In this document: positions 6,269-30,748 of the stretch, one piece after another
How the letters are laid out: every line of letters starts with the position of its first letter
Position numbering within the stretch: position 1 is the first letter of the stretch
Assembly (NCBI RefSeq): GCF_947331435.1
Contig: NZ_CAMZOF010000001.1
Location: 744,001 to 808,000 of the forward strand
Source of the DNA: Pelagibius sp. Alg239-R121
GTDB taxonomy: Bacteria > Pseudomonadota > Alphaproteobacteria > Kiloniellales > Kiloniellaceae
Reading direction: 5' to 3'
DNA: 64,000 nucleotides
Program-made: the position numbers and the translations under genes
The notes under the pieces: model-generated
What the model was told of the DNA's origin: nothing
Database searches by the model: none
Seen by the model: only the letters and a program-made list of their open reading frames with translations

Positions 6269-6384
6269 CTCTAGAGTGCGATCGTTCTGAATTGAAACAA
6301 TCTGGGACGTGAGTCGGCCGCTAACACTATGAAGAAGAGGCTGATTTACGTCTTCACGAATGCAGCGAAAAACGGTCAGACTCT
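6269..6384 (+). repeat. Interspersed intergenic repeat, copy A
   Basis: This 116-bp stretch aligns along its whole length with 29604-29718. Shared segments include CTCTAGAG, GCGATCG, CTAAC, GAAGAGGCTGATT, ACG and a final TCAGACTC. Copy B is non-coding, while copy A overlaps the first codons of the cyclase gene at 6329. Shorter related pieces occur at 11428-11482 and 18171-18210. I see no ORF or terminal inverted repeats, so it is a small non-autonomous or palindromic repeat rather than an IS. Confidence 0.7.
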
Positions 6385-15225: not shown

Positions 15226-16220
15226 TTCGTGGCACCTCCGCCGAGCCGGATTCGGGGGTCGAGAACCGCGAGTGCGAGATCCGAGAGAAACACGCCGACG
15301 ACAACGAGGCCGGCCTCAAACATCAGAAAGGATCCTGCGAGGAACATGTCCTGACTCTGCAGTGCGCGGACCAGCATCGGACCCGTGGTCTCCAGACTGA
15401 GCACCACCGAGACAAGAACGGCGCCGGAGATAAGTTGCGGCAGGACGTTGCCGATGTCCGCGATAAAGGGGTTGATGGCCATGCGCAGCGGATACTTCAG
15501 CAGCACCTTCAGGGGTGAAAGGCCTTTGGCGCGGGCCGTTACCACATACTGCTTCTGCAACTCGTCGAGCAGATTGGCCCGCAAGCGCCGGATCATGGCG
15601 GCCGTGCCAGAGGTGCCGATAACGATGACCGGGATCCAAAGATGCTCCAGTACCGACTTCACTTTGTCCCAGGTCCAGGGGTGATCGATGTACTGCGGGT
15701 CCATCAGGCCGCCAATCGAAGTTCCGAACCAGAGATTGGCGAAGTAGAGCAATACTAGTGCCAGCAGGAAGTTGGGGGTTGCCAAGCCCAGAAAGCCGAC
15801 GAAGGTCAGGACATAATCGCCCACACTGTACTGCCGTACCGCCGAATAGATGCCGATTGGAAAGGCGACGGCGTAGGTAAAGAGGATGGTCGAAAGCGCA
15901 ACGATGAAGGTCAGCCACAGGCGGTCGCCGATCACTTCGTTGACCGGCAGCTGATGCTCGAAGGAAAAACCCAGGTCTCCCTGCAGCAAGCCAAACACCC
16001 AAACTGCGTACTGCTCCAGGAACGGCTTGTCCAAGCCGTACTCCCGGCGCAGATACTCGATCTTCTCCTGATCGACGGCTTCGCCCTGGGCCTGCATCTC
16101 GGCGATTTCCGTCTCCAGGAAGTCGCCGGGCGGCAGCTGAATGATGACGAAGATGATGAAACTGATCGCCAGCAGTGTCGGGATCATGGTGAGGATGCGT
16201 CGGACGGTATAACCCAGCAT
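15222..16220 (-). CDS. Peptide-type ABC transporter permease (DppB/YejB-like)
   Basis: A 332-residue permease with the family N-terminus (YTVRRILTMIPTLLAISFIIF), the periplasmic LRREYGLDKPFLEQY segment, GDLGFSF, and the EAA-like loop in VTARAKGLSPLKVLLKYPLR. About six TM helices. It lies 2 bp downstream of the double ATPase and overlaps the second permease by 4 bp, so all three are one transcript. Confidence 0.9.
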   Translation of the reverse strand: MLGYTVRRILTMIPTLLAISFIIFVIIQLPPGDFLETEIAEMQAQGEAVDQEKIEYLRREYGLDKPFLEQYAVWVFGLLQGDLGFSFEHQLPVNEVIGDRLWLTFIVALSTILFTYAVAFPIGIYSAVRQYSVGDYVLTFVGFLGLATPNFLLALVLLYFANLWFGTSIGGLMDPQYIDHPWTWDKVKSVLEHLWIPVIVIGTSGTAAMIRRLRANLLDELQKQYVVTARAKGLSPLKVLLKYPLRMAINPFIADIGNVLPQLISGAVLVSVVLSLETTGPMLVRALQSQDMFLAGSFLMFEAGLVVVGVFLSDLALAVLDPRIRLGGGATK

Positions 16221-16222
16221 GA

Positions 16223-18148
16223 TTATGCCCCCCCCGCCGCACTGCGCAGTTCATTGTCGGCCGCCGGCTGGGCCCGAACGAAGTGGCCGCCGCCCAGATC
16301 GACCATGTCCATCTCGGTATGGCCGTCGATGGTAAAGGGATAGGGCCAGGTCTCGGGGTTTGACGCCCGGCCTTCCATGAGCGCACTCAGATCGAGCCGG
16401 TGCGCCGGATCGGGCTCGGGAACCGCGGAGAGCAAAGCCTGGGTATAGGGATGGGTCGGATTGCGGAACAGCAGCTCTCTGGGCGCCAGCTCGACCAGCC
16501 GGCCCCGGCACATGACGGCAATCCGGTCGGCGATGTAATCCACCACGGCGAGGTTGTGGCTGATGAAGATGTAGGTCAGGCCGAGAGAGGCCTGCAGATC
16601 CTTCAGCAGGTTTAGAACCTGGGCCTGGATGGAAACGTCGAGCGCCGATACCGGCTCATCGCAGATCAAAAGGTCGGGTTTCAGGGCGAGCGCGCGGGCG
16701 ATGCCGATGCGCTGGCGCTGGCCGCCCGAAAAGCTGTGGGGGTACCGTTGCAGGTAGCGTACATCGAGGCCGACGACGCGCATCAATTCCTTGACCAGTT
16801 CGGCGCGCTCGGACGGATTGGTCATACCGTGGATGATCAGGGGCTCGCTGATCAGCTCGAATACGGTCATGCGCGGGTTCAGGGAGGAAAAGGGGTCCTG
16901 AAACACGAACTGGATCCGGGTGCGGAAATCGATCAGGTCCTTTCCCTGGAGGCCGAGCACGTCGGTGCGTTTTCCCCGGTCGTTGAAAGTGATCGCGCCA
17001 TTGTCCGGCGAGGCCGCCCGCATGATGATCTTGGAGAGCGTGGTCTTGCCGCAACCGCTTTCGCCCACCAGACCCAGGCATTCGCCGCGTTTGACCTCAA
17101 AGCTGACATCGTCGACGGCCAGGACTTTGGCTTCTTCGCTGGACGTGAAAAAACCGCCTTTGCGCGTGTTGTAGGTCTTGGTGATGTGGTCGACCTTCAA
17201 CAACGGCGGTTCGTTGGCGTCTTCCGGCCAGGGCTTCATGCCTTCGCCCAGATTGATGCCGCTGTCATGCGAGATTTCGCGGATCGGCTGGAGGCGCTCG
17301 CCCGGCTTCATGTCGAAGCGCGGAACGGCATGCAGCAAGGCCTTGAGATAGGGATGACGCGGATCGCCGTAAATGTCGGCTAGATCGCCACGCTCCATGA
17401 CCTCGCCGTGATACATCACCACGACCTCGTCTGCGACATTGGCAACCACGCCCAGGTCGTGGGTGATCATCAACACCGACATGTCGAGTTCGCTCTGCAG
17501 ATCCTTGATCAACTTGAGAATCTGGGCCTGGATTGTGACGTCAAGGGCGGTTGTGGGCTCATCGGCGATCAAGAGTGCCGGACGGCAGACGAGAGCCATC
17601 GCGATGACGGCACGCTGCCGCAGGCCGCCGGACAGCTCGAACGGATAGGTATCGTAGGCGCGGACAGGGTTTGGAAAGCCGACCAGCCGCAGGATATCGA
17701 TGACCATCTCGCGCCCCTGCGTGCCGCTGACCTTCTGGTGAAGGTGCAGGGCCTCGCCGATTTGGTTGCCAACCGTGTGGACGGCTGACAGCGACGTCAT
17801 GGGTTCCTGGAAAACAATGGAGATCCGGCTGCCGCGGATGTCGCGCATGGCGGCTGAGTTGGGGGCCAGCGCCGCAATATCTGTGACCGCGCCGCCCTGT
17901 GCGGGATCGGCGAAGAGAATCTGACCGCCTTCGATATTTGCGGATTTGGGGAGAATTCCCATGATTGCCTGGCTGACGACGGATTTTCCCGAACCTGACT
18001 CACCGACGAGTGCGACTGTCGACCCACGGGCAATACGGAAGGAAACCCCGCGCACGGCTTCCAGCTTGCCTTCGGGCAAAGTGAAGGCAATTCTCAGGTT
18101 TTCGACACGCAGAAGATCGTCTTGCGATGCCTGGTCTCGGTCACTCAA
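16223..18148 (-). CDS. Double-domain peptide ABC transporter ATPase (YejF-like, DppD-DppF fusion)
   Basis: 641 residues with two complete ATPase domains. Domain 1 has Walker A GESGSGKS near residue 52, signature LSGGLRQRA and Walker B LLIADEPTT; domain 2 has Walker A GESGCGKT near residue 366, signature FSGGQRQR and Walker B LLICDEPVS. Both keep the oligopeptide-type C-terminal extension. Translation starts at a TTG with GGGGGA nine bases upstream; no ATG fits. First gene of a three-gene operon for peptide or opine-like uptake. The substrate-binding protein normally encoded with such sets is absent on both sides. Confidence 0.92.
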   Translation of the reverse strand: MSDRDQASQDDLLRVENLRIAFTLPEGKLEAVRGVSFRIARGSTVALVGESGSGKSVVSQAIMGILPKSANIEGGQILFADPAQGGAVTDIAALAPNSAAMRDIRGSRISIVFQEPMTSLSAVHTVGNQIGEALHLHQKVSGTQGREMVIDILRLVGFPNPVRAYDTYPFELSGGLRQRAVIAMALVCRPALLIADEPTTALDVTIQAQILKLIKDLQSELDMSVLMITHDLGVVANVADEVVVMYHGEVMERGDLADIYGDPRHPYLKALLHAVPRFDMKPGERLQPIREISHDSGINLGEGMKPWPEDANEPPLLKVDHITKTYNTRKGGFFTSSEEAKVLAVDDVSFEVKRGECLGLVGESGCGKTTLSKIIMRAASPDNGAITFNDRGKRTDVLGLQGKDLIDFRTRIQFVFQDPFSSLNPRMTVFELISEPLIIHGMTNPSERAELVKELMRVVGLDVRYLQRYPHSFSGGQRQRIGIARALALKPDLLICDEPVSALDVSIQAQVLNLLKDLQASLGLTYIFISHNLAVVDYIADRIAVMCRGRLVELAPRELLFRNPTHPYTQALLSAVPEPDPAHRLDLSALMEGRASNPETWPYPFTIDGHTEMDMVDLGGGHFVRAQPAADNELRSAAGGA

Positions 18149-18170
18149 CGCTAAATTCCCCCATTTCCGC

Positions 18171-18210
18171 TAAAGCGCGATCACTCCTGATTGAGACGAT
18201 CGAACTCCCG
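18171..18210 (+). repeat. Interspersed repeat fragment, copy C
   Basis: TAAAGCGCGATCACTCCTGA followed by TTGAG and CGAACTC mirrors the AGAGCGCGATCGCTCTTGAT unit of the repeat at 29604. It lies just upstream of the ABC ATPase start, in a 168-bp gap that holds nothing else I recognise. Confidence 0.45.
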
Positions 18211-18316
18211 TTCTCCCAGACCGAAATACCCCAAAACCAAATCTGCTGGCGCAGACTATCCGAACTCAACCCTGCCGTCACTTCATGCCCTTGTTATTTC
18301 GCGTGAGCCCCTGGCG

Positions 18317-18886
18317 TTATGCCTCGAATTCTTCTCTGGATTCCGCATCGATATCGATGCCCATCGTTAGTAAGTTACCGGCCGTTGCCGGGTCGATCCC
18401 AAGATTTACGGCGCGGGCAGCCTGTGCAGCCTTTGTCGTGATTGCCGTGAAGCCCTCGAGCGAGGATTCGAAAGACATCGAAGTTTTCCGTTCTGCAACG
18501 CTGGAAAGTGTGAGTTGCATGAAGCCCCCGCCACCCGTGCCGACACCTTCCTTATGATGATTACGCCGCGTGCCGAAGTAGCGTAGCTTGACCTCGGTCA
18601 GCTCCGGCCAAGCCAGATAACGCGAGAAATGGCCGTTGGGAGACTGACTGCTGGCGGGTCTTATCTGCGTCGCGATTCCCTGGTTATCAAGCGATACCTC
18701 CAGATACTGACGCTTCAGTGTGCGTAGGGCGAACACGGCAAAGAGGATCGTCAGGGCCCAGAATATCAGAGTCACGAACCAAGGGAGAGGACCTGAGAGA
18801 AGCACACCCAGAGTCACAATCAATCCTGCCGCGGCTCTCAAGTAGTCACCGATGACCGATTTAACGGGGTAACGATAGACGGTCAC
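18317..18886 (-). CDS. Uncharacterised two-TM membrane protein in the glycosyltransferase operon
   Basis: A 189-residue protein with two adjacent hydrophobic helices (about residues 13-32 and 35-52) separated by a tight GPLPW turn, then a soluble domain with VSLDNQGIATQIRP and FSRYLAWPELTEVKLRYFG, resembling a PH-like (bPH) or DUF-type membrane-associated fold. I infer a small inner-membrane accessory protein facing the cytosol. It is the last gene of the eight-gene operon and overlaps the deacetylase gene by 4 bp, which argues that it works in the same process. Confidence 0.65.
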   Translation of the reverse strand: MTVYRYPVKSVIGDYLRAAAGLIVTLGVLLSGPLPWFVTLIFWALTILFAVFALRTLKRQYLEVSLDNQGIATQIRPASSQSPNGHFSRYLAWPELTEVKLRYFGTRRNHHKEGVGTGGGGFMQLTLSSVAERKTSMSFESSLEGFTAITTKAAQAARAVNLGIDPATAGNLLTMGIDIDAESREEFEA

Positions 18887-19797
18887 GCCTTGCCTTTCCT
18901 CGCCGGCTTCTGCTTTTTCACCCCGTCGGCGACCGGAAGGTTCCGTTCCGGCGCGTCAGCTGCACTGTTCCTTGCGGGGTCTGGCGCCCCATCGTTGTTA
19001 TCAGCATGTGAAAATGCTTCGGAAGGTGCAAGTAACTTAGTTGCGGGATGCAGACTCAAGAACTCCAGAAGTTTGTCCAAAAAGTCCCAGCTGGCACTAT
19101 CGTGGACCAAGTGATGGGTCAGGATCCCGGTGGCTTCCAGGCTGCAGTGAGCGCTATCCGTTCGCGCGAAAGCCGCGCGTCGTGCGTGAAGATGATCGCA
19201 CAGCAGTGCCAGGGCTTCGGTTTCGCCCAGAAAACCGCGCTCGGGCTTCCAGCGTAGCAGATCCGCATGGGTATTGACCTGCAGAAGCCCCGGAGCCGGG
19301 AACGTCTGTTTGCGGGCTTTGTAGGTCGAGAGCCCGGTAAAGCCGCCGTCCCGCAGGCGCGGGACCAGTTCCGGCGTAATCCGGTTCCAGGGCGGCACCA
19401 AAACCGGCAACATCCTTTCACCGAAGAGAGTCTGTAGGCGATGACGTCCCGCAGTTAGTTGCTCGATGGTTTCTTCGATCGACGCTGCAGCGCTCAATTC
19501 AGTCTTCTTTTCGCCTTCAGGCGCGGTGTTTCGATGGGCAATGCCGTGCTGCAAAACGGAGATTTCGGCGGTTTCGGCCCCCGTCCAATCCGCCAGATAC
19601 TTGGCCAGCGCCGTTTCGCATTGTTCCGGGATGACGGCCAGCGCCAGTCCTGCGGAATGCTTCAGCGAAAGCGCCAGCAGGCGCTCCAGAGCAGCGCTTG
19701 GCGCCACGGCGTCATCGTCGCGCCACCAGAAGGTCGCATTCAGGCCGGCCTGCTGCCAGGCCCCCAGTTCCTGCCTGAGACCGTCCCATCCGGTCAT
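18883..19797 (-). CDS. Polysaccharide deacetylase-like (NodB-fold) protein
   Basis: 304 residues. The N-terminal motif FWWRDDDAV (about residues 23-31) supplies the catalytic Asp pair, LQHGIAHRN (about 102-110) the metal-binding His pair region, LVPPWNRI the PxxW-type motif, and ILTHHLVHD a late catalytic His region. Together these fit a metal-dependent carbohydrate esterase-4-type deacetylase, removing acetyl from N-acetylated sugars. No signal peptide is visible, so it would act in the cytosol on a nucleotide- or lipid-linked intermediate. The C-terminal ~50 residues are low-complexity and basic. Overlaps both neighbours by 4 bp. Confidence 0.75.
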   Translation of the reverse strand: MTGWDGLRQELGAWQQAGLNATFWWRDDDAVAPSAALERLLALSLKHSAGLALAVIPEQCETALAKYLADWTGAETAEISVLQHGIAHRNTAPEGEKKTELSAAASIEETIEQLTAGRHRLQTLFGERMLPVLVPPWNRITPELVPRLRDGGFTGLSTYKARKQTFPAPGLLQVNTHADLLRWKPERGFLGETEALALLCDHLHARRAAFARTDSAHCSLEATGILTHHLVHDSASWDFLDKLLEFLSLHPATKLLAPSEAFSHADNNDGAPDPARNSAADAPERNLPVADGVKKQKPARKGKA

Positions 19798-20978
19798 AGT
19801 GGGCTCCCAGCGGACTGCTTCTGCGCCGCTGCACGGACAAGCGCCGCGCTCCGTTCAGCACCGGAGGTATCGAGGTGATGGAGAAGATCTGCGGGATCAC
19901 TCGCCAACAAAGCGTCCTCGATGCCGGCGGCCAGGCTCTCGGCGTTCAGGCGGTCTTCCCTAATCACGGTGGCGACGCCGCGCTCGGCCAGCAGTTGAGC
20001 CCTGAGCGCCTGTTCGGTCTGTTGCGTGGCTGCAAAGGGAACCAGGACGGCAGGGACGGAGGTCGCCAATATATCCATCACCGTATTGTAGCCGGCCTGG
20101 CTGATGGAAAGCCGCGCGTGTGACAGCAGTTCCGTGAAGTCGGGACGGGCGCGTTCGAGAACTACACCCTCGCTACAGTGGCTCTGGAGTCTGTTAAAGG
20201 TCTCTTCGGCTAAATTCGGGCCCGCCAGCAGGCGCCAAGGCACGCCCGAGAGCGACGTCATGGGACGTGCCGCCAGTGCGGCTTCGATGAGAGGCGCGGC
20301 AACGGCCCCGCCGCCTGCAGAGACAATGACCTCGCCATCATGACGCTGTCGGCTGGGGAGGGCGTTGGGTGCGGCCTCAAGCACGTAACCGGTGTAGCGA
20401 ATCTTGTCCCGAAAGCTTTCGATGGCGGGGAAAGAGCGTTCGAGCGGCACGAATTCAGGATCGCCGTGCACCAGAACCTGATCGAAGTAGTCTTCGACAG
20501 CCTTGATGATCCACTCGGTCTTGCCCGGTTTCTTGTGGGTGGTCAGCACGTCACGTAAGGAACAGATGATCTGCGGTCGTCTGGCTGACGCTTTGGCGGC
20601 ATCGAGCAGCGGCATCAGTTCGAAGCGCATCTGGCGTCGGCCGAAAGGGAACATTTCAAAGAGCAGAACCCGTGGTTTGTGTTTCGCCAGGAGTTCGAGC
20701 AGGATGTCCCGCCGTGCCGCTTTGCCCCGATCGTCAAGTTCGCGTCCCGTCTCGTCCACCAATGTGCTGAAACTCTCATCCAGCGTGCGCAACGGCGGCA
20801 GCTGTACGAATTCACAGCCACCGACATCGGTTTCGGGCACCGGAAGTCCGCCAGAGACAAAGACTACCCGCAGTCCGGCCCGGTCCATGGCGCGGGCCAG
20901 GATGCAGGCCCGACGCAGGTGCCCGATGCCCAGCAGGTGCTGGACGTAGAACAGGACATCGGCGGCTTCGGTCGGCAT
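19794..20978 (-). CDS. Glycosyltransferase, MurG/GT28-like fold, copy 1
   Basis: 394 residues. The N-terminal Rossmann domain opens with DVLFYVQHLLGIGHLRRACILA, a GxGH-type acceptor loop like MurG, and has RPQIICSLRDVL before the linker; the C-terminal donor-binding domain contains ISAGGG-like VSAGGGAVAAPLIEA, the RPDFTELLSHARLSISQAGYNT segment and PFAATQQTEQALRA. Donor and acceptor sugars are unknown. It is clearly paralogous with the gene at 21570: both share VQHLLGIGH, FVSGG, FVQLPPLR and EMFPFGRRQMRFEL. Four bases separate it from the phosphatase gene upstream. Confidence 0.8.
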   Translation of the reverse strand: MPTEAADVLFYVQHLLGIGHLRRACILARAMDRAGLRVVFVSGGLPVPETDVGGCEFVQLPPLRTLDESFSTLVDETGRELDDRGKAARRDILLELLAKHKPRVLLFEMFPFGRRQMRFELMPLLDAAKASARRPQIICSLRDVLTTHKKPGKTEWIIKAVEDYFDQVLVHGDPEFVPLERSFPAIESFRDKIRYTGYVLEAAPNALPSRQRHDGEVIVSAGGGAVAAPLIEAALAARPMTSLSGVPWRLLAGPNLAEETFNRLQSHCSEGVVLERARPDFTELLSHARLSISQAGYNTVMDILATSVPAVLVPFAATQQTEQALRAQLLAERGVATVIREDRLNAESLAAGIEDALLASDPADLLHHLDTSGAERSAALVRAAAQKQSAGSPL

Positions 20979-20982
20979 GGAG

Positions 20983-21573
20983 TTACCTGGTTGTCAGCGG
21001 GATGTTGAGGCTTTCCACCACTGCCGTACCGTCAGGCGACAGGCGGAAGGCATGGCAGCAGTCGTTCAGAAGCTTGGTTGGCGGCTTTCCGGTCATATCC
21101 CAGCCGCTCGCGAGCGAATAGAGTGCGCGGATGATGCCCTTGTGGCTGATGGCGGTGGTCGGCTCCCCTTTCTCGCCCAATTCGCTGAGCAGGGGCTTGA
21201 GCCGGATTTGCAGATCGCGCGGACTTTCACCTCCGGGCGGCTGCAGGTCCAGTCCCTTGGCCTCGTTCTGAACCATTTTGTCGCCCAGTTCCCGGCGGAG
21301 GTCGGTGAGGCGCCAGCCTTCCCATTGCCCCCAATGCATCTCCCGCAGGCGCTCGTCGATCTGAGCATCCGGATGCTCCAGCAGGGCGGCGGTCTCGCGG
21401 GCCCGCAGCAGGGGACTGGTCAGCCAGCGGCTGGCGCGCGCTTCATCTGGCAGGCGCCAACCTGGTATATCCACGCGTGCCGTCTCTGAAAGACCGATGT
21501 CGCTTTGCCCCTGAATCCGGCCTTCCGCGTTCCAAGAGGTCACGCCGTGGCGAAGGATGAAGAGCAGGGTCAT
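20983..21573 (-). CDS. Histidine phosphatase (phosphoglycerate mutase-like) family protein
   Basis: 196 residues with the phosphohistidine motif LRHGVTSWN (H9), the second active-site segment SPLLRARETA, the acidic residue in EMHWGQWEG and the late His in TAISHKGIIRAL. A cytosolic phosphatase acting on a small phosphorylated compound; the family covers sugar phosphates, alpha-ribazole phosphate and others. Lying between two paralogous glycosyltransferase genes and overlapping one by 4 bp, it probably removes phosphate from a sugar intermediate of this pathway. Confidence 0.85.
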   Translation of the reverse strand: MTLLFILRHGVTSWNAEGRIQGQSDIGLSETARVDIPGWRLPDEARASRWLTSPLLRARETAALLEHPDAQIDERLREMHWGQWEGWRLTDLRRELGDKMVQNEAKGLDLQPPGGESPRDLQIRLKPLLSELGEKGEPTTAISHKGIIRALYSLASGWDMTGKPPTKLLNDCCHAFRLSPDGTAVVESLNIPLTTR

Positions 21574-22802
21574 GGCGCCCTGCCTTCGGTTTGACCGTTT
21601 TCATGATCTGAAAGCAGGCTTTCGATCCGCTTTGCGGTGTTTCGGGCGCCGTCGGTGTCCAGCTTGAGGCGGCTTGTGCCGCTCCGGCCGAATTCCGCCG
21701 CGATGGCCTGGAGCAGGCTGTCGGCGGTCAGATCCTGTTCTTCGACGAGCGTGAGGGCGTCACGACCGGCAAATAACCTTGCACGCAGGGTCTGCTCGGT
21801 CTCAAGGCCGCCTGAATAGGGCACGATGACCCTTGGGCACCCGGCGCGCAGCACCTCCATGACGGTGTTGTAGCCGCCCTGACTGATCGAAAGGCGACAG
21901 TTGGGCAGCAGTGACGTGAAATCGGGGCGGGAGCGCTGGACCATCACGTTGTCGCGGGCTTGCGCCTTGAAGGCCTGAAAATCAACTTCCGGCAGGCTAT
22001 GACCGATGAGGATCCGCCAGCGGCAGTCTTTCAGGTGTGCCAGCGCCGGCGGCAGTCTCTGGCTTGCGGCCAGGGCGGCGGTGACCAGGGCCTCGCTAAC
22101 CGCGCCGCCGCCGGTCGAGACCAGGATTTCGTCGATCCCGTCGCTGGGATGCGGCGGTTTATCGACCGATTCATCAACAACGTAACCTGTATATACAACC
22201 TGGTCGGCAATTTCGTGTAAGGGCGGAAAAGTCTCGTCGAAGGGAATGAGATCGGGGTCGCCGTGGACCAGGGCGAAATCAAACACGCGCTGTATCCAGT
22301 CGATCATCTCAGCGATGCGCTCTCGTTTGGGCGGCTCCACCAGGATATCGCGCACCGACGACAGGATCAGGGGTCGGTGTGCCGCGGCGTGGGCGGATTC
22401 CAGCAGGGGCCGAAGTTCAAAGCGCATCTGACGGCGTCCGAAGGGGAACATCTCAATCAGCAGCGCCCGCGGCCGCTCCTGCTCAAAGACCGACAGGAGT
22501 TGGGCACGGCGTTCGGCTTTGAAGCCATCGTCGGCTTCCTGGCCCTGTTCATCGACCAGGCGGCGAAAATGAATGTCTTCGGCACGCAGAGGCGGCAGCT
22601 GGACGAACTTCGCGGAACCGGTGTTCAGCCCAGGCACTGACATGCCGCCGGAAACGAAGGTCACTTTCAGGCCTTGCCGCTCCATGGCCCGGGCAAGGGT
22701 TGCGGCGCGTTTTTGATGGCCAATCCCAAGCAGATGCTGGACATAGAAGAGCACATCGGTCCGCTGGGAATCATTCGTCAAACTGTTCTGCACCTGGCTC
22801 AC
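21570..22802 (-). CDS. Glycosyltransferase, MurG/GT28-like fold, copy 2
   Basis: 410 residues, close paralogue of 19794-20978 with the same motifs in order: TDVLFYVQHLLGIGHQKRAA at the N-terminus, FVSGGMSVPG, EMFPFGRRQMRFEL, LVHGDPDLIPF, VSTGGGAVSEALV opening the donor domain, and RPDFTSLLPNCRLSISQGGY near residue 300. The two copies probably add related sugars in succession, or the same sugar to different acceptors. Four-base overlaps with both neighbours. Confidence 0.8.
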   Translation of the reverse strand: MSQVQNSLTNDSQRTDVLFYVQHLLGIGHQKRAATLARAMERQGLKVTFVSGGMSVPGLNTGSAKFVQLPPLRAEDIHFRRLVDEQGQEADDGFKAERRAQLLSVFEQERPRALLIEMFPFGRRQMRFELRPLLESAHAAAHRPLILSSVRDILVEPPKRERIAEMIDWIQRVFDFALVHGDPDLIPFDETFPPLHEIADQVVYTGYVVDESVDKPPHPSDGIDEILVSTGGGAVSEALVTAALAASQRLPPALAHLKDCRWRILIGHSLPEVDFQAFKAQARDNVMVQRSRPDFTSLLPNCRLSISQGGYNTVMEVLRAGCPRVIVPYSGGLETEQTLRARLFAGRDALTLVEEQDLTADSLLQAIAAEFGRSGTSRLKLDTDGARNTAKRIESLLSDHENGQTEGRAP

Positions 22803-23956
22803 AGCCTGATCTCCCCATGAGGCTTTGCCGCAAGTGCACGCTGCAGAATAGCGTCGAGGTCTTGGGAGGCGGCCGTAAGATCGTGCTCCATAGCGGCTTT
22901 CTGTGCTGCCGCTGACGCCATGCTTATTCGCCGTTCCGGCTGGTCGAGCAGGATTGCAACTGCCGACGCAATGGCATTCCCGTCTTCAGGTTGGGTCAAG
23001 AGACCCGTCACCCCATCCTCGACGATGGCGGGGACGCCGCCTGTTCTGGCCGCAACTACGGGAAGGCCGCTGGCCTGCGCTTCCAGCAATGCCATGCCAT
23101 AAGCCTCATTGACGGCAGGCCAGACCAGAAGATCACTGGCAGCGTAGATTTCCCGCAGGGCCTCAGGGGGCTGTTCACCCAAGAACCGCAAACGCGCCGG
23201 ATCGATCGAACCGAATGCCTGCTCGACGTCCTGTTTGGCCGGTCCGTCGCCCACGATTAAGATTTGCCAGGGGTGGTCCTGCAGCCCCGTCAGGGCCTTG
23301 CTCAGCAGCCGGTAGGAGGCCAGTTTGTCGCCCCGCCTCATCATTGCGACACTCAGCAGCCAGGGCTGATCCGGGTCCAGCTTGAATGTTGACGACAGCT
23401 TCCTTTTGGCCTCTTGGACTTCAGGCGCCTGTAAGCGAAGGCGGCTGATGTCCAGAAAAGGTTTAATGGGTTCCAGTGTTATGCCATCCGGCAGGCAGGC
23501 CGCATCGTGGGGATTGACGGTGATGACAGCGGCGCTTTGGGCCAGGGCATCCAGCGTGGCCTGATGTCCCAAGTCCCAGGGGCCGCCTGCACGCTTGTAG
23601 GCGACCGAGGCCTCGGCCACAAGATATGGGATATCGAGGCATTTGCAGACTTTGGGGCCGACCCAGTCCGGAGCCTTGTAGTAGAGATGATAGGTGAACC
23701 AGGCTTGCGGGCGCTGGCCCTCGGGCCTGGCGTCATAGCGCCGCAGAAGACGCTCGGCGAGGCCTTCGCCCAGCCGTTTCAGGCGGTTTTGGCGTGCGGG
23801 GTCGCCCTTGGCATCCCGGCTGCGCAGACGGGAAGCAAGCTCGACCCTATGTCCTGCCTGCTTGAAAGCTTCGAGAAACAGCTGGGCCATATGGCGATCG
23901 CCGGACGGCACCGGATGGTCGGGCGGCTTCATGGGTGCGTAGAAGGCGATACGCAT
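22799..23956 (-). CDS. Glycosyltransferase family 4
   Basis: 385-residue GT-B retaining glycosyltransferase. The N-terminus MRIAFYAPMKPPDHPVPSGD has the short-linker acceptor loop of GT4, ILIVGDGPAKQDVE marks the start of the donor domain and the EX7E region is EAYGMALLEAQASGLPVVA. The YEEAS-like order and the IVEDGVTGLL end are standard for GT4. It starts one base inside the stop of the preceding gene (TAATG) and overlaps the next by 4 bp. Confidence 0.88.
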   Translation of the reverse strand: MRIAFYAPMKPPDHPVPSGDRHMAQLFLEAFKQAGHRVELASRLRSRDAKGDPARQNRLKRLGEGLAERLLRRYDARPEGQRPQAWFTYHLYYKAPDWVGPKVCKCLDIPYLVAEASVAYKRAGGPWDLGHQATLDALAQSAAVITVNPHDAACLPDGITLEPIKPFLDISRLRLQAPEVQEAKRKLSSTFKLDPDQPWLLSVAMMRRGDKLASYRLLSKALTGLQDHPWQILIVGDGPAKQDVEQAFGSIDPARLRFLGEQPPEALREIYAASDLLVWPAVNEAYGMALLEAQASGLPVVAARTGGVPAIVEDGVTGLLTQPEDGNAIASAVAILLDQPERRISMASAAAQKAAMEHDLTAASQDLDAILQRALAAKPHGEIRL

Positions 23957-25236
23957 TACTTTTGCTCAAAGCGCGATAGTAGGGCGTCGACGCCGCTTTG
24001 CATTGCGAATTCGCTTCTGACCCGCTGACAGCCTGCGGTCGCCAGCCTGTGCCTCCTGGCGGGATCAACGATCAAATTCCGAAGCGCCGCCGCCAGATCA
24101 TCGGGGCTTTCGGGCGGGACCAGCAACCCGGTTTCACCGTCGCGGATCAATTCAGGAATGGCTGACACGGCCGTGGAAACGCAGGCGACCGCCTGGCTTT
24201 GAGCTTCCATCAGCACATTTGGCAGGCCGTCGCGGTCACCGTCGCTTCCGATCCGGCTGGCAAGCACGAAAAGATCCGCCTTGCGATAGTTTTCCAGCAC
24301 GACTTCCTGCGGCTGGGCGCCGAGCCAGTCGATGCGCGTGTCGATACCGAGTTTCCGGCCGAGGGCACGCAGTTTGTCCGTCAGTTTTCCGCCGCCGATA
24401 TGTACAAGGCGCCACTGCAGTTCCTTGGGCAGCTGTGCCAGGGCCGTCAGAAGGTCATTATAGCCCTTCTTTTCTACCGCCCGCCCCACCGAGAGCAGGA
24501 TAACCGGATTTTCGGGATCGCTGCCGTCACCTTGCTTTGCGTTGCTGTCGTCATTGTCATTGCCCGCAGAGTCTGGTGTTGACGGATCAGGGGCGTGCGC
24601 AGCGTTAGGACCAAAGCGGGTCAGGTCCAGGCCATGATAAACAAGTCCGACCTTGTCGGGATCGGGGGCAAGTTCGGCGAGATGGTCCCGGCCGACCTCG
24701 GTGCAAGTCACCAGCCACTCCAAATCCGCCAGTTTCTCGCGCTTTTCCCACTCCGGCGTGGTCCAGATGTCCTTTGCATGAGCGGAAGCCGACCACGGCA
24801 AACCAGTCATGACAGCGGCATAGCGGGTGACCGAGGCGGGGGTATGCAGGAAATGGGCGTAAAGCTGCTTGATGCCTGCCGGCAATTCTGCGGCCAGCAC
24901 GCAGGCCTGACCGAACCGGCGAATCCGATTTGGAGTGCGGTCCCGCAACAGATCGCGCAGGAAAATGCTGCGTGCCTTCCGGTAGCCCGGCAACTTGGCG
25001 GCTTTGCGCCAGGCCCGCCAGACGCGTGCGGGCTCGTCGTGCAGATATTCCGGCAGATAGGTGACTTCAGCCGTGATCTCGCGGTGGACCGGGTGAATCG
25101 ACGTATCCGTCGGATGACGCAGCGAGAAGAAATGCAGGTGAAGGCCGCGTTGCTCCAGAGCCAATAGCTCCTGCGCGATGAACGTTTCCGACAGGCGCGG
25201 ATAGCCTTTCAGAATGACGGCAATGCTGGGTGTCAT
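23956..25236 (-). CDS. Glycosyltransferase family 4 (WcaL-like)
   Basis: 426 residues. The opening AVILKGYPRLSETFIAQELL is characteristic of colanic-acid-type WcaL/AmsK transferases. A low-complexity Asp/Asn-rich insert (about residues 225-245) precedes LLSVGRAVEKKGYNDLL, and the donor-site acidic motif is GLPNVLMEAQSQAVACVSTA, where the second Glu of EX7E is less clear because Asn-Val-Leu-Met-Glu replaces the usual order. Presumed inner-membrane-associated, using an NDP-sugar. Its presence supports an exopolysaccharide or glycolipid pathway. Confidence 0.87.
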   Translation of the reverse strand: MTPSIAVILKGYPRLSETFIAQELLALEQRGLHLHFFSLRHPTDTSIHPVHREITAEVTYLPEYLHDEPARVWRAWRKAAKLPGYRKARSIFLRDLLRDRTPNRIRRFGQACVLAAELPAGIKQLYAHFLHTPASVTRYAAVMTGLPWSASAHAKDIWTTPEWEKREKLADLEWLVTCTEVGRDHLAELAPDPDKVGLVYHGLDLTRFGPNAAHAPDPSTPDSAGNDNDDSNAKQGDGSDPENPVILLSVGRAVEKKGYNDLLTALAQLPKELQWRLVHIGGGKLTDKLRALGRKLGIDTRIDWLGAQPQEVVLENYRKADLFVLASRIGSDGDRDGLPNVLMEAQSQAVACVSTAVSAIPELIRDGETGLLVPPESPDDLAAALRNLIVDPARRHRLATAGCQRVRSEFAMQSGVDALLSRFEQK

Positions 25237-25258: not shown

Positions 25259-26503
25259 TCAAGATCTGCCGGGCATGGCGGTCTCTTCGCCGCCGTCTTG
25301 AAGCGCTGTAAGGCCGGTCCGGCGCCGGGAGATCCATTGTTTGGTCAGCTTGACCACGTTGCGGCGACCGTCCAGCAGCCCTGGAACGACGGTTTCCGAC
25401 GGCAGGCGCTGTTGAGGTAAATTGCGCAGGGCCGTCGCCATGGTCGTGGCATCTCTCTCGCCATCATCGCTCAGCATGGTGAGCAGGCCGAGGTCCTGTG
25501 CCCGGGACGCGCGGATGAACTGCTCCAGGCGCGGCTCGGTCCTTGGGACGATCAAAGCCCGTTTGTCGAAAGACAGAATTTCGCAAAATGTGTTGTAGCC
25601 ACCCATGCCGACCACGGCCAAAGCCCGCTTTACGAAGGCTTCCAGTTGGGCATCGAAGGTGATGGCCTCCACATTGTCGAGCCGGTTTACCCGTTCAATG
25701 AACTCACTCTGCAGTTCCGACCCCATAAAGGGGCCCAGCACGATCAGGGCAGGATGCGGCAGATCGGGGTCGCTCTCGTAGGCGCGCAGAACCCAGTCGA
25801 TGATGGCCTCGCCGTCACCGCCGCCGCCGACGGTGACCAGCAGAAAGGGCTCTTTGATCTTTTCCAGTTTGGGCTGTGGCGCGTCCTCCGTGGTGCTGCG
25901 CCGGAGATAGCCCGTATAGGTTACCTTGCGGTGAACCGATGGCGGCAGGTCGATGCCTTCCAGCGGGTCGCAGATCTGAGGCAGGCCGTAGATCCAGATA
26001 TCGTCGTAGTAGTTGCGCAGAGCCGGCTCTACGCCTTTGCGCTCCCATTCCGGCGCCAGAAGATAGGGCTCGTCCATCACGTCGCGCAGGCCCAGCACGC
26101 AGGGCGTGCCGCGGGCTTTCAGCATCTCGAGGGTTGCTTTGACCTCGCCGCGCAGGCCCAGTGGCTCCTTGTCGACGATGAAGATGTCCGGATCGTAAAC
26201 CTTGGCGGTATGTTCGATGATCGAGGACCGGATGGCCAGGGTGTCGCTGATGTCGATGCGCAGGCTCAGGGAGGTGTAATCCCCGTCGCGCAGTTTGATC
26301 ACGCCCGGAATTCGCACGAAGTCGACACGCGAAGCGAAACCGTAATTCCCGATAATGGGTGAACCGGACAGAATCAGGACCGACAGATGGTCCTCGGCCT
26401 TGGCCAGCGTATGGGCGATTTCACGGCACCGCCTCAGATGTCCGAGCCCAAAGCTGTCGTGGCTATAGATTAAAACGCGCGTGTCGCGCTGGCTTTGGGC
26501 CAT
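25259..26503 (-). CDS. Glycosyltransferase, MurG/GT28-like fold, divergent third member
   Basis: 414 residues. The opening VLIYSHDSFGLGHLRRC matches the GxGH acceptor loop of the two other MurG-like copies, but the rest has diverged; LLVTVGGGGDGEAIIDWVL begins the donor domain and VVGMGGYNTFCEILSFDKRA with VPRTEPRLEQFIRA matches the sugar-nucleotide region. It is the first gene of the eight-gene operon, 22 bp before the GT4 gene, and shares a 249-bp gap with the divergent ABC gene at 26753. Confidence 0.82.
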   Translation of the reverse strand: MAQSQRDTRVLIYSHDSFGLGHLRRCREIAHTLAKAEDHLSVLILSGSPIIGNYGFASRVDFVRIPGVIKLRDGDYTSLSLRIDISDTLAIRSSIIEHTAKVYDPDIFIVDKEPLGLRGEVKATLEMLKARGTPCVLGLRDVMDEPYLLAPEWERKGVEPALRNYYDDIWIYGLPQICDPLEGIDLPPSVHRKVTYTGYLRRSTTEDAPQPKLEKIKEPFLLVTVGGGGDGEAIIDWVLRAYESDPDLPHPALIVLGPFMGSELQSEFIERVNRLDNVEAITFDAQLEAFVKRALAVVGMGGYNTFCEILSFDKRALIVPRTEPRLEQFIRASRAQDLGLLTMLSDDGERDATTMATALRNLPQQRLPSETVVPGLLDGRRNVVKLTKQWISRRRTGLTALQDGGEETAMPGRS

Positions 26504-26752: not shown

Positions 26753-29470
26753 ATGGAACGTAATCTTTTCAAATACGTATGGCGTCATAGCCGCCGTGAG
26801 CAGCTTGGCATCCTGCTGTTGGTGTCGATTTCCCTGCCGTTCTATTTTCTGTCGCTCAATCTTCCCAAACAGATCGTCAACGAAGGCATTATCGATGGCT
26901 TCGACCTGATCGGAAAATCTGAAACAGAACAGCAAAGAGCGCTGTTCTCGCTCGAATCCCTCGTCGGAAATGAAATCGGGCCTCTGTTCGAAGGCCTGGT
27001 GCTTGGGCCCTATGGCTACCTACTGGCCCTTTGCATCGCCTTTCTGGCGCTGGTGATGGTCAATGGCGGCTTTAAGTTTTTCATCAACACTTTCAAGGGT
27101 CAGCTCGGCGAACGCATGCTGCGGCGTCTGCGCTTTGAGCTCACCGACCGGGTTTTGCGTTTCCCCATTCCCTTCGTCAAGCGGGTCAAGCAGGCCGAAG
27201 TGGCCACCATGATCAAGGATGAAGTGGAGCCGCTGGGCGGTTTCATCGGTGATGCTTTCGTGACGCCCGCGTTTCTGGGCGGCCAGGCGATTACCGCCAT
27301 GCTGTTCATCATGGTTCAGAATATCTGGCTGGGACTCGTTGCTGCCGGAATCGTGGTGTTTCAGGCGCTCCTGATCCCCAAGCTGCGCAAGCGGATTTTG
27401 GATCTGGGGCGGCAGCGGCAGCTGACCGCGCGGAAACTTGCTGGACGAGTCGCGGAAATTGTCGACGGGGCAATAGAGATTCAGGCGCACGACACGACGA
27501 ATTACGAACGTGCCGACATGACCAAGCGGCTGGGCGAGATTTATCGTATTCGCTTTGAGATCTTTCAGCGCAAGTTCTTCGTCAAGTTCCTGAACAACCT
27601 GCTCTCGCAGTTTACGCCCTTCATCTTCTATTCGGCAGGCGGTGTGCTGGTGATCAGCGGCCGTCTCGACGTCGGTGCTCTGGTCGCGGTCATCGCGGCC
27701 TATAAGGACCTGCCCGGACCGATTAAGGAGCTGATCGATTGGGATCAGCGCCGGAACGACGTCCAGATCAAGTATGACCAGGTTATCGAGCAATTCCAGC
27801 CGCCCATGATTATCGATCCGGAGCTACAGGATCCGGGAGAGGACAGCGGGCCTTCGCTGACCGGTTTGATCGAGGCAAACTCCCTGACTCTGGAAGACGA
27901 CAACGATACCAAACTGGTCGAGGGCGCCAGCTTCAATTTCGATCTTTCTCACCACATCGCCATTGTCGGACCGAGCGGTAGCGGCAAGGACCATCTGAGC
28001 ATGATGCTGTCCGGAATGCTGTCGCCCAGTTCGGGCACCATCAAGGTGGGCGGACGGAACCTCCAGGAACTGCCATCGGCGGTGACCGGGCGGCGCCTGT
28101 CATATGTCGGTCCCAACACTTACTTTTTCCCGGTTTCGGTACGCGACAACCTGCTTTACGGCCTGAAACACCGCCCCCTGCGCGAACCTGAGTACGACAG
28201 CGAGGGACAGGCGAAACAAGCTGCTGATACGGCCGAAGCGTTGCGATCGGGCAACTCGCCGCTGAACTTCGACGCGGATTGGGTGGAATATGCGGCGGCA
28301 GGCGCATCGGGACCAGGCGAGATCAGCCGGCACATGATCCAAATCCTGACCGATGTCGGTCTTGAGGAAGACGTTTATCGGCTTGGCCTCAGCGGAACCA
28401 TTGATGCCGACGCGCATCCCGAAGTCGCGGAAGGAATCTTGACCGCCCGTTCTGCGCTGTCTGATCGTCTGGCGTCGGAAGACGCGGAGGATCTGGTCGT
28501 ACGCTTCGATCCCGAGGCTTACAACCGGAACGCCACATTGGCGGAAAACCTTCTGTTCGGCACGCCGACAAACCCGATCTACGCTACCGATGTGTTGGCG
28601 CAGAGCCCTCTGATGCTGCAGGTCCTGAAGGAGAAGGACCTGACCGGACTTCTTCTCGACATCGGTTACAGCATTGCCAAGACCATGGTCGAAATCTTCG
28701 CGGACCTGCCCTCCGGTCATCCCTTCTTCGAGCAGTTCAGCTTTATCGAAGCCGATGATCTACCGGAGTTTACGGCACTGATCGCCCGCGCGGAGAAGAC
28801 CGGCCGTGGCGAGCTCGGGGAGACGGAAGAGGGCTTGTTGCTGAATCTGCCGTTCAAGTACGTCGAGGAGCGGCATCGCCTTGGGTTGATCGATGGTGAT
28901 GCGGAGAAGAAACTGATCGCGGGACGTCAGCGTTTTTCCGAACTTCTGATGGAAAAGGATCCGGGTGCGGTTGCCTTTTACCGGCCGGAGTCCTACAACG
29001 CGGCCGCTTCGCTGCAGGACAACATTCTATTCGGCAGATTGGCTTACGGACAGGCACAGGCGGCCGAGACCATCGGGCGGGTCATGTCTGAGCTGCTCGA
29101 TGAACTGGGTCTGCGCGAACGGGTGGTCGAGGCAGGACTGGACTACAACGTCGGTGTTGGGGGCTCTCGTCTTTCTATCGTGCAAAGGCAAAAACTGGGA
29201 TTTGCCCGCTGCTTGCTGAAGCAGCCGGACATTCTGATCGTCAATGAGGCCGCAGCGGGTATGGACAGTTCGACCCAGACAAAGCTGTTGGAAACCGTGC
29301 TGCAGCAGCGCCGGGGCAAGGGCATCGTTTGGACCTTGCAGCATCCCAGGGCCGCGGAGCATTTCGACCATGTGCTGGTCATGCGCGCGGGGCGGATTGC
29401 GGAACAGGGAAGCTTTGCTGAACTGACACAGCCCGGTTCAGCGCTCAGCGAGCTGCTCGCGGCGGAGTAA
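26753..29470 (+). CDS. ABC exporter-like protein with degenerate ATPase and large repeat-bearing insert
   Basis: 905 residues. An exporter-type transmembrane domain (about residues 15-340) is followed by an ATP-binding cassette that starts near 370. Walker A is GPSGSGKD (406-413), with Asp in place of Ser/Thr after the Lys. The signature reads GGSRLSIVQRQK (about 802) in place of LSGGQ, and Walker B is ILIVNEA (about 827) with Asn in place of Asp. The H-loop His in TLQHP is kept. Between Walker A and the signature are about 390 residues, three times the normal distance, containing three copies of a Q-loop-like motif: near 449 (GPNTYFFPVSVRDNLLYG), 584 (DPEAYNRNATLAENLLFG) and 742 (RPESYNAAASLQDNILFG). 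Probably exports or flips the product of the divergent glycosyltransferase operon, or acts as a structural or regulatory ABC protein. Confidence 0.85.
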   Translation: MERNLFKYVWRHSRREQLGILLLVSISLPFYFLSLNLPKQIVNEGIIDGFDLIGKSETEQQRALFSLESLVGNEIGPLFEGLVLGPYGYLLALCIAFLALVMVNGGFKFFINTFKGQLGERMLRRLRFELTDRVLRFPIPFVKRVKQAEVATMIKDEVEPLGGFIGDAFVTPAFLGGQAITAMLFIMVQNIWLGLVAAGIVVFQALLIPKLRKRILDLGRQRQLTARKLAGRVAEIVDGAIEIQAHDTTNYERADMTKRLGEIYRIRFEIFQRKFFVKFLNNLLSQFTPFIFYSAGGVLVISGRLDVGALVAVIAAYKDLPGPIKELIDWDQRRNDVQIKYDQVIEQFQPPMIIDPELQDPGEDSGPSLTGLIEANSLTLEDDNDTKLVEGASFNFDLSHHIAIVGPSGSGKDHLSMMLSGMLSPSSGTIKVGGRNLQELPSAVTGRRLSYVGPNTYFFPVSVRDNLLYGLKHRPLREPEYDSEGQAKQAADTAEALRSGNSPLNFDADWVEYAAAGASGPGEISRHMIQILTDVGLEEDVYRLGLSGTIDADAHPEVAEGILTARSALSDRLASEDAEDLVVRFDPEAYNRNATLAENLLFGTPTNPIYATDVLAQSPLMLQVLKEKDLTGLLLDIGYSIAKTMVEIFADLPSGHPFFEQFSFIEADDLPEFTALIARAEKTGRGELGETEEGLLLNLPFKYVEERHRLGLIDGDAEKKLIAGRQRFSELLMEKDPGAVAFYRPESYNAAASLQDNILFGRLAYGQAQAAETIGRVMSELLDELGLRERVVEAGLDYNVGVGGSRLSIVQRQKLGFARCLLKQPDILIVNEAAAGMDSSTQTKLLETVLQQRRGKGIVWTLQHPRAAEHFDHVLVMRAGRIAEQGSFAELTQPGSALSELLAAE

Positions 29471-29785: not shown

Positions 29786-30238
29786 ATGAGCATCGAGCAG
29801 GAAGTCGAAATTCTTCGAAACATTCCGCTTTTCGCAAACGTCGAACCGGCGAAGCTGAAACTCATGGCTTTTGCCAGCGAAAGGATGATGTTCAAACCAG
29901 GCCAAGTGCTTTGCAGTCAGGGCGATCCAGGCGACGCGGCCTTTATCCTGATCGATGGACAAGCGAACGTCGAGGTCAATACGCCGGATGGGCCGCTGAC
30001 GGTCGCAACCATGCAACGTAATGATATTATTGGTGAAATCGCAATTCTCTGCGACGTTCCCCGAACCGCGACCGTCGTCGCCGAGAGTGAATTGGTGACC
30101 TTGAAAGTGACCAAGGACCTGTTCTTTCGCATGGTCACCGATTTTCCTGAAATGGGTGTTGAGGTCATGCGGGTATTGGCTCACCGTCTCGAAGCCATGA
30201 ACGCGCAATTGCTGGCAGCCCGTGCCGGCAACGCTTGA
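29786..30238 (+). CDS. Cyclic nucleotide-binding domain protein
   Basis: 150 residues, essentially one cNMP-binding beta-roll (about residues 10-125): IPLFANVEPAKLKLMAFASE, then LCSQGDPGDAAFILIDGQA, and the phosphate-binding cassette with GEIAILCDVPRTATV, where Glu and Arg are the expected cAMP contacts. It lacks the DNA-binding HTH of Crp, so it is not a transcription factor by itself. Lying 315 bp after the ABC gene and 12 bp before a methyltransferase gene, it could sense cAMP and control either partner protein. Two class III cyclases occur in this window. Confidence 0.88.
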   Translation: MSIEQEVEILRNIPLFANVEPAKLKLMAFASERMMFKPGQVLCSQGDPGDAAFILIDGQANVEVNTPDGPLTVATMQRNDIIGEIAILCDVPRTATVVAESELVTLKVTKDLFFRMVTDFPEMGVEVMRVLAHRLEAMNAQLLAARAGNA

Positions 30239-30250
30239 GCAAGAGTAAGA

Positions 30251-30748
30251 ATGAGCCGTTTAGATAGCGTCATCCGCCGGTTGCAGGCGCAGCGTGCCTG
30301 CCTCCAATATGGTGTCGAACTTGTACGTGAGCTGTCCGGTCCGGTTTTCGAACTGGGCCTAGGGAATGGACGTACGTACGATCACCTCAGGGAAATTTGT
30401 TCCGGATGCGAAATATTCGTGTTTGAACGTAGTGTTGCTGCCCATCCCGATTGTATTCCCGACGATGCCCACCTCTTTCTCGGTGACTTGTCGGAAACCT
30501 TGCCGGCGGCGGTTGAACGTTTCCGTGGTCAGGTCCGTCTGATCCATTCGGACATCGGCACGGGAGACCAGGCAAGGAACGCGGAGATTGCCCGTTACAT
30601 TGCCGGCTTTTTGCCGGATCTCCTCTGTCCTGGCGGCATCATCATCTCGGATCAGGACACGGTTTTTGCCGGTGCGGAGCCCGTTGCACTTCCGGACGAC
30701 GTCCGCAGCGGCCGCTACTTCATGTACCGGGCAGGACCGACAGGTTAG
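30251..30748 (+). CDS. Small class I SAM-dependent methyltransferase-like protein
   Basis: 165 residues. GPVFELGLGNGRTYDHLRE gives the SAM-binding glycine loop (about residues 32-44), CEIFVFERSVAAHPD the acidic motif II, and LIHSDIGTGD and PGGIIISDQD later Rossmann strands. The small size leaves little room for a substrate cap. Twelve bases after the cyclic-nucleotide-binding gene, so co-transcribed; I infer a role in the glycan/ABC locus, but the acceptor is unknown. Confidence 0.75.
   Translation: MSRLDSVIRRLQAQRACLQYGVELVRELSGPVFELGLGNGRTYDHLREICSGCEIFVFERSVAAHPDCIPDDAHLFLGDLSETLPAAVERFRGQVRLIHSDIGTGDQARNAEIARYIAGFLPDLLCPGGIIISDQDTVFAGAEPVALPDDVRSGRYFMYRAGPTG

Follow-up and report, generated by a model that had tools for sequence, protein, structure and literature searches.

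At positions 26753-29470 (+) of a 64,000-nucleotide stretch of Pelagibius sp. Alg239-R121 (GCF_947331435.1, contig NZ_CAMZOF010000001.1, forward-strand positions 744,001 to 808,000; hereafter the window), a gene was found that encodes a 905-residue membrane protein resembling type IV ATP-binding cassette (ABC) exporters, here called the pseudo-ABC exporter. Its nucleotide-binding domain (NBD) contains three homologous Q/X-loop segments, its ATP-site motifs are eroded throughout a family of homologues, and the gene is followed directly, on the same strand, by a gene for a cyclic-nucleotide-binding protein of 150 residues, the partner. In our interpretation, the protein would be a conserved ABC exporter of the pseudo-ATPase kind that carries a glycan or glycolipid and is under the control of a cyclic nucleotide; for this reading as a whole, we consider the chances evenly balanced. 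The features of the two genes are as follows.

26753-27802 (+): transmembrane domain, residues ~1-350, with PF00664 at 91-315 and helices in the AlphaFold2 (AF2) model
27968-27991 (+): eroded Walker A motif GPSGSGKD, residues 406-413
28025-28399 (+): repeat unit 1, residues 425-549, motif at 457-475
28184-28966 (+): insert proper, residues 478-738
28400-28714 (+): repeat unit 2, residues 550-654, motif at 585-605
28886-29230 (+): repeat unit 3, residues 712-826, motif at 742-763, extending into the signature helix
29171-29191 (+): eroded signature LSIVQRQ, residues 807-813
29228-29248 (+): eroded Walker B motif DILIVNE, residues 826-832
29339-29341 (+): Gln in the H-loop column, residue 863
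29786-30238 (+): cyclic-nucleotide-binding partner, 150 residues, PF00027 at 68.5 bits

Two Pfam families were assigned to the chain, ABC_membrane (PF00664, 59.6 bits against a cut-off of 28) at residues 91-315 and ABC_tran (PF00005, 64.4 bits against a cut-off of 25) at residues 390-494, the latter match covering an ABC ATPase domain over its first two thirds; no peptidase domain was found by Pfam. NCBIfam models of many exporters hit the protein in two stretches, the top matches being TIGR02203 (MsbA equivalog) with 153.8 bits and TIGR03796 (NHLM exporter) with 156.1 bits, compared to curated cut-offs of 602 and 853.3, respectively. The membrane domain and NBD fold together in one chain, typical of type IV ABC exporters, are common to this protein and the MsbA and NHLM types, from which it differs in its scores far under the cut-offs, a repeat-bearing insert of about 290 residues and an eroded ATP site. 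One full-length copy occurs in the 8.02 Mb genome; a further 113 matches listed were partial and reached at most 45.5 bits, compared to 2009 for the protein itself.

For comparison within the family, a set of 133 homologues was assembled from 59 open reading frames (ORFs) longer than 700 residues (class search, E 1e-60) and 80 named-genome loci, the resulting 139 rows being reduced by removing those identical over stretch 51-200. Among the regions compared, residues 112-177 of the transmembrane domain were the best conserved.

Walker A ends 394 residues before the signature, a spacing close to the 390 or so given in a preliminary description made from the sequence alone, and the insert accounts for about 290 of the residues between them. 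The insert, 264-298 residues long, was present in all 133 homologues, which is partly a matter of selection since the rows were picked by whole-protein similarity and insert-free relatives were disfavoured. The three motifs that the preliminary description had noticed were located at residues 457-475, 585-605 and 742-763. Their Asn is retained in 131, 133 and 133 of the 133 homologues for copies 1, 2 and 3, respectively, and the comparison of homologues it had proposed gave at least five of six motif positions in all three copies for 131 of the 133.

Profile-profile alignment with hhalign yielded scores of 39.7 for units 1 and 2, 35.1 for units 1 and 3, and 96.6 (E 7.9e-18) for units 2 and 3, the closest pair, compared to a maximum of 20.8 in 60 column shuffles per pair. 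When other segments of the chain were used in 20 comparisons, the top score was 27.4 (segment 480-580) and the next 17.8; the former is expected of a true copy, since this segment overlaps the helical part of copy 1 itself. Against a canonical NBD profile built from six exporters of the same genome (L010 dropped), units 1, 2 and 3 scored 87.1, 31.5 and 93.1 (87 columns), all at the Q/X-loop region, with shuffles reaching at most 23.0 and six other segments, mostly from the membrane domain, at most 13.3. Copy 2 was the weakest match to the canonical NBD, and unit 3 runs on through the helical subdomain to the signature helix. Judged from these profile matches, the copied element is the strand, Q/X-loop and helical segment of an ordinary exporter NBD, and we are highly confident that the triplication arose by tandem copying. 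The earlier proposal of a Q-loop subdomain duplicated within one ATPase therefore stands as regards duplication inside one NBD, with profile scores above those of shuffles; the term ATPase is better replaced by pseudo-ATPase.

An unrelated inserted domain was considered and rejected. Searches of the inserts with Pfam gave 10 singleton families among 81 members (E <=0.1), none of them common to the inserts, and the window's own insert matched no family at E up to 0.1. Three PDB sequences were the only ones retrieved by the insert profile (E <=10); all are ABC proteins aligned at the Q-loop (E 1.6-1.8), each insignificant alone. Strong conservation was also seen in the insert beyond the motifs, at residues 638-665 (28664-28747; consensus ~IAxTMVELFADLPPGHPFFEQFSFI) and residues 706-714 (28868-28894; consensus ~ARHRLGLID).

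The AF2 model, based on 81 sequences, had a mean predicted local distance difference test (pLDDT) score of 82.7, mostly 85-95 in the insert and below 50 in three stretches of the membrane domain. Each copy orders its elements alike: a short strand, the motif helix, a short strand and helices. The predicted NBD core (model residues 367-903) was superposed on the NBD of ComA with 239 of 239 residues aligned, at a root-mean-square deviation of 1.7 Å and a Z score of 29.2. From this full superposition, the NBD is predicted to close normally round the insert, forming a complete fold that the insert interrupts. The preliminary description had named two outcomes that would speak against it, and neither was observed. 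Instead of motifs in unrelated folds, the prediction gave the core of a normal NBD, and no homologue without the insert or with the full set of canonical motifs occurred among the 133 selected by whole-protein similarity. No near insert-free relative was found in the own genome, where the next best protein reached 45.5 bits; this check covers the own genome, the weaker matches of other genomes lying outside it.

When the insert alone (478-738) was modelled by AF2, a pLDDT of 87.7 was obtained, and the short strands of copy 2 were unformed. Foldseek gave no match for this model at E 0.001 or better. With VIA, in which 347 chains were re-aligned, the first four rows were ABC NBDs with Z values of 5.6, 5.4, 4.8 and 3.8, the first three belonging to ABC exporters and covering model residues ~110-256 (protein 587-733); as Z values below 8 may reflect a common arrangement only, they are taken as support and nothing further.

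Erosion of the ATP site was evident at several motifs of the window protein. Walker A ends in GKD instead of GK[ST], the signature (807-811) reads LSIVQ instead of LSGGQ, and Walker B carries Asn831 in place of Asp next to a retained catalytic Glu832, all three as previously noticed and now placed at residues 406-413, 807-811 and 831. The retention of the H-loop His, also claimed at that time, had to be abandoned: the H-loop column (863) holds Gln, and the His that had been noted is residue 864, where 95 of the 133 homologues have Arg.

The same tendency was observed in the homologues. Column 413 of Walker A contains Ser or Thr in 11 of 133 and Asp or Glu in 103, Lys412 is retained in 86, the Q-loop Gln in 43, and the catalytic Glu832 in 73; column 831 contains Asp in 23 and Asn in 84, and the H-loop column contains His in 26. 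The GG of the signature was absent from all 133. Of eight canonical ATP-site features, no homologue has all, and the four that come closest have five. In 13 extra members (two named rhizobial and 11 others), the Walker A Lys and Walker B Glu were both gone in 12, the exception (L175) coming from the same genome as L051 of the 133-row set. The erosion is shared across the family and is not confined to individual members.

When all columns were ranked by conservation, six motif positions fell within the top 60, as did signature Leu807, which was outside the 11 ATP-site columns tested. None of those 11 columns did; they lay between the 9th and 59th percentile, except for Gln811 (75th) and Asp838 (90th). 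With the motif positions conserved and the ATP-site columns eroded, this ranking points to selection on a function other than ATP hydrolysis, and the protein is quite probably a pseudo-ATPase.

The partner matched PF00027 with 68.5 bits (cut-off 27.5), its sole Pfam family at E 0.001, and carries the Glu and Arg of the phosphate-binding cassette. Neighbour counts were made for 120 loci (L046-L165), with L017-L045 excluded for short flanks; they are lower bounds because many flanks are shorter than 6 kb, and this set and the 123-locus set used below include at least two genomes twice (L075/L099 and L078/L143). A same-strand homologue of the partner was detected by a strict search at 116 of the 120 loci, four being fused forms. 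A looser search gave 121 of 123, comprising 115 separate genes directly downstream and six C-terminal fusions (L058, L059, L067-L070). All six fused segments scored above the Pfam cut-off, and the six rows formed a single fork with support 99 in a quick tree of the 133 members and four outgroup exporters, in which long branches were flagged. Apparent fusions at L057, L063 and L071 were reading-frame artefacts and were scored as separate genes. As a control, none of 15 other ABC loci of the own genome had such a partner gene within 1.5 kb.

In the phosphate-binding cassette of the partners, Gly was found in 122 of 122, Arg in 122 of 122 and Glu in 115 of 122; we take this Glu and Arg to be the ligand-binding residues. 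On account of fusion and near-universal adjacency, a physical partnership between the pseudo-ABC exporter and the nucleotide-binding protein is very likely, and the retained cassette residues suggest that the partner likely binds a nucleotide-type ligand. The ligand may be cyclic AMP, cyclic GMP or another nucleotide, since a domain of that type in HetC binds ppGpp according to the available account (PMC10986499). Genome G154 carries three fused-form paralogues (L067, L068 and L069) with 28-31% identity to the window protein, in which the ATP-site motifs are more eroded still.

The pseudo-ABC exporter gene is divergent from a group of glycosyltransferase and histidine phosphatase genes, followed by an Opp-type transporter. 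The neighbouring features of the window are as follows; the Rhizobium leguminosarum cluster used for comparison is described below.

30251-30748 (+): Methyltransf_17 protein (189.3 bits), a frequent third gene, in 58 of 120 loci
25259-26503 (-): divergent glycosyltransferase (Glyco_tran_28_C by Pfam), matched in 83 of 120 loci
23956-25236 (-): glycosyltransferase (Glycos_transf_1 by Pfam), matched in 74 of 120 loci
22799-23956 (-): glycosyltransferase (Glycos_transf_1), matched in 71 of 120 loci, partly by cross-matches to the other Glycos_transf_1 gene
21570-22802 (-): Glyco_tran_28_C protein, matched in 63 of 120 loci, paralogue cross-matches included
20983-21573 (-): histidine phosphatase, matched in 58 of 120 loci
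19794-20978 (-): Glyco_tran_28_C protein, matched in 76 of 120 loci, paralogue cross-matches included
16223-18148 (-): Opp-type ABC transporter ATPase, 60.5% identity to the R. leguminosarum cluster
15222-16220 (-): Opp-type permease, 65.7% identity to the same cluster
14014-15225 (-): Opp-type permease, 64.6% identity to the same cluster
6329-7771 (+): class III adenylate/guanylate cyclase domain protein, PF00211 at 34.3 bits
47-718 (+): second cyclase-like ORF at the window edge, 39% identity to the R. leguminosarum cluster's cyclase over 219 residues (window 11-664)

For each of the glycosyltransferases and the phosphatase, between 58 and 83 of the 120 loci gave a match, figures that include paralogue cross-matches and are limited by flank length. 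The neighbours that recurred and could be named were genes of glycan, methyltransferase, DNA-repair and transport type; Opp and cyclase genes were outside the search on which these counts are based. Between the Opp genes and the glycosyltransferases (18317-19797), two ORFs of 189 and 304 residues are located, neither with a Pfam family, and the 304-residue one has homologues at 25 of 120 loci.

A class III cyclase gene is grouped in a single run with the genes for an Opp-type transporter, three glycosyltransferases, the homologue of the pseudo-ABC exporter and the partner in R. leguminosarum WSM1325 and Sinorhizobium meliloti R28. Identities between R. leguminosarum and the window were 60-66% for Opp proteins, 41-54% for glycosyltransferases, 47% for the pseudo-ABC exporter and 53% for the partner; the cyclase of the cluster shares 27% identity with that at 6329-7771. 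A gene like the Opp substrate-binding protein of R. leguminosarum was not found in the window (tblastn, E 1e-5). It is from this gene run and the neighbourhood as a whole that a glycan or glycolipid cargo and a cyclic-nucleotide signal are proposed, and a glycan-type cargo may be given an even chance.

In a class-wide sample, matches at E 1e-60 or better, mostly full length, were obtained in 59 of 190 genomes (own genome included), and three genomes (G124, G139 and G178) had the gene in pieces only. In a phylum-wide sample, 27 of 398 genomes matched, all 27 belonging to the window's own class, with the share of the sample outside that class unstated. Among 597 stretches of named genomes, at least 551 relatives were found and the best 80 retained; these came from Kiloniella, Pelagibius, Rhodovibrio, Reyranella, Azospirillum, Enhydrobacter, Dongia and others. 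A plasmid collection yielded 262 matching records, 144 from Rhizobium and 80 from Sinorhizobium, every one below 60% identity. Annotated plasmid rows, among the matches listed, were labelled ABC transporter or ATP-binding cassette protein; for this family, several public annotations as an ATP-binding protein are probably misleading.

Twelve titles among the best 80 belonged to betaproteobacterial metagenome bins (L114, L115, L118, L119, L121, L123, L124, L125, L128, L144, L150 and L162). Together with L120 and L145, these loci formed one fork of 14 rows with support 100, nested within alphaproteobacterial rows, which may reflect either horizontal transfer or mislabelled metagenome bins. In S. 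meliloti 1021 (pSymB 826000-862000, L178), the match at 15685-18436 was limited to residues 138-883 and sits in a 762-residue ORF overlapping a 237-residue ORF of another frame. Strain R28 has a single intact gene of 903 residues, unlike the broken record of 1021, a laboratory reference, and the discrepancy may be either a strain difference or a sequence difference.

The two halves of this arrangement each have precedent in the published accounts available to us, in dead-site or repurposed ABC proteins (PMC7756269) and in HetC of Nostoc with its nucleotide-binding domain (PMC10986499). HetC is likewise an ABC exporter joined to a domain of the cyclic-nucleotide-binding type that is needed for function, and in the published description this domain is N-terminal and binds ppGpp, while the chain also bears a C39 peptidase and an ATPase residue that is essential (PMC10986499). 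In contrast, the pseudo-ABC exporter has its partner as a separate gene or a C-terminal fusion and its ATP site is eroded; neither a C39 peptidase nor an N-terminal cyclic-nucleotide-binding domain was found on the chain by Pfam. Degenerate-site exporters are reported to combine one degenerate site with an active one, with conserved non-catalytic sites, and CFTR and SUR to be ABC exporters turned channel or regulators with non-transport roles (PMC7756269). The present protein resembles them in conserved non-catalytic sites or non-transport roles; repeated Q-loop segments, its own feature, are not met in that account of degenerate-site exporters (PMC7756269).

S. meliloti MsbA2 (SMb21191), a pSymB exporter tied to the export of an unknown polysaccharide (PMC3687685, PMC12239276), is like the pseudo-ABC exporter an ABC exporter beside glycosyltransferases. 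Identity of the two was dropped on a comparison of positions only, the MsbA2 operon lying at ~938 kb of pSymB and the homologue at 842 kb. SMb20813 has been termed an msbA homologue (PMC10945364), and its equivalence with the S. meliloti homologue described here is not established; SMb20811 (PMC6180224) and SMb20804/20805 (PMC5539429) could not be placed relative to the gene from the available text. Among the papers listed from the open-licence literature, with subscription journals outside its coverage, no description of repeated Q-loop segments or of this family was found, nor was one of an eroded family that combines a tripled coupling segment with a nucleotide-binding subunit dedicated to it.

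In exporters, the Q/X-loop segment normally contacts the coupling helices of the membrane domain. In the mechanism that we propose, the window protein would be functional and conserved, resembling type IV ABC exporters and probably forming a homodimer, and would no longer be driven by ATP hydrolysis. A segment consisting of the strand, Q/X-loop and helical subdomain would have been tandemly copied twice within the NBD as the ATP-site residues eroded, and, given the normal contacts of the X-loop, the extra copies would most likely serve as an enlarged cytosolic coupling and docking surface. The partner would dock on these copies and, upon binding its ligand, switch the membrane domain. The activity switched would most likely be the movement of a glycolipid or oligosaccharide produced by the neighbouring glycosyltransferases. 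Whether the partner gates the membrane domain could go either way in our judgment. A cyclic-nucleotide-gated ABC transporter or flippase, in which ATP hydrolysis is swapped for a cyclic-nucleotide-binding subunit and the tripled segment acts as the coupling device, is a more tentative idea and on balance a doubtful one.

Several observations weigh against this mechanism. Surviving ATP-site positions are frequent (of the 133 homologues, 86 keep Lys412, 73 keep Glu832, 127 keep the D-loop Asp838, and 108 and 131 keep the signature residues Gln811 and Leu807, respectively), so that ATP binding or slow hydrolysis would be possible in many members, and L171, one of the 13 extra members, has GG in its signature. 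The Asn of copy 1 is lost in L176 and in two of the 133 homologues. Structural matches of the insert are weak; its top rows in Foldseek were unrelated proteins, with ABC chains at ranks 38 and 48 among the 50 listed. The partner was undetectable by the looser search at L055 and L060 of the 123 loci. At many loci the glycosyltransferase and Methyltransf_17 genes were not found, and a glycosyltransferase match was absent from all six fused loci, in the flanks examined, where counts are lower bounds. Finally, the cyclases of the window lie ~19 and 26 kb from the pseudo-ABC exporter gene.

A first alternative is a slow or non-canonical ATPase, in which ATP would be bound via the P-loop and the acidic residue replacing Ser/Thr, with the partner merely tuning the activity. 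Retention of Lys412, Glu832 and the D-loop Asp is in its favour, as are the reports that known exporters operate with one degenerate site (PMC7756269) and that HetC pairs a cyclic-nucleotide-binding domain with an ATPase domain bearing an essential catalytic residue (PMC10986499). Unlike the one-site degeneracy described in the former account, the Walker and signature motifs are here eroded on the same chain, which would affect both composite sites of a homodimer. Since, in addition, Lys and Glu are missing from 12 of the 13 extra members and the ATP-site columns, Gln811 and Asp838 excepted, rank no higher than the 59th percentile, this alternative is considered unlikely. Erosion on both sides also argues against a degenerate half of a heterodimer whose canonical exporter half is encoded elsewhere, because both composite sites of such a dimer would be impaired. 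Degenerate sites are reported as common among non-homodimeric exporters (PMC7756269), and the genome offers at least 150 ABC ATPase matches (150 of 327 candidates scored); in two annotated rhizobial clusters, the other nearby ABC genes are of the importer type. We regard a heterodimer as slightly less probable still.

A signalling scaffold or receptor would retain the fold and the partner after loss of ATPase activity, which would fit the present family, with the membrane domain sensing a ligand and the pair of NBD and partner reporting it, in the manner of SUR for potassium channels; CFTR and SUR are described as exporters turned channel or regulators (PMC7756269). The recurrent nameable neighbours, of glycan, methyltransferase, DNA-repair and transport type, speak against this role, with the neighbour clusters only partly identified, and it appears improbable. 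Hardly any weight is given to a decaying pseudogene, a sequencing artefact or an insert of unrelated origin. Motif erosion, the broken copy in the S. meliloti 1021 record and the genes in pieces in G124, G139 and G178 would be consistent with decay; all 80 named-genome loci, however, translate without a stop, no internal stop occurred in the rows of the class-wide search, and the motif Asn is kept in 131-133 of the 133 homologues. Against an unrelated insert stand the homology of its profile to NBD segments and the lack of a Pfam family common to the inserts of 81 members.

ABC exporters are regarded as ATP machines. If the proposed control of an eroded exporter by a nucleotide-binding partner is true, a second messenger is able to gate or re-drive the scaffold of an exporter. 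The family would then be a natural system for asking what role the Q/X-loop segment plays apart from ATP, and in Alphaproteobacteria, rhizobia included, it may add a new candidate to the targets of cyclic-nucleotide signalling.

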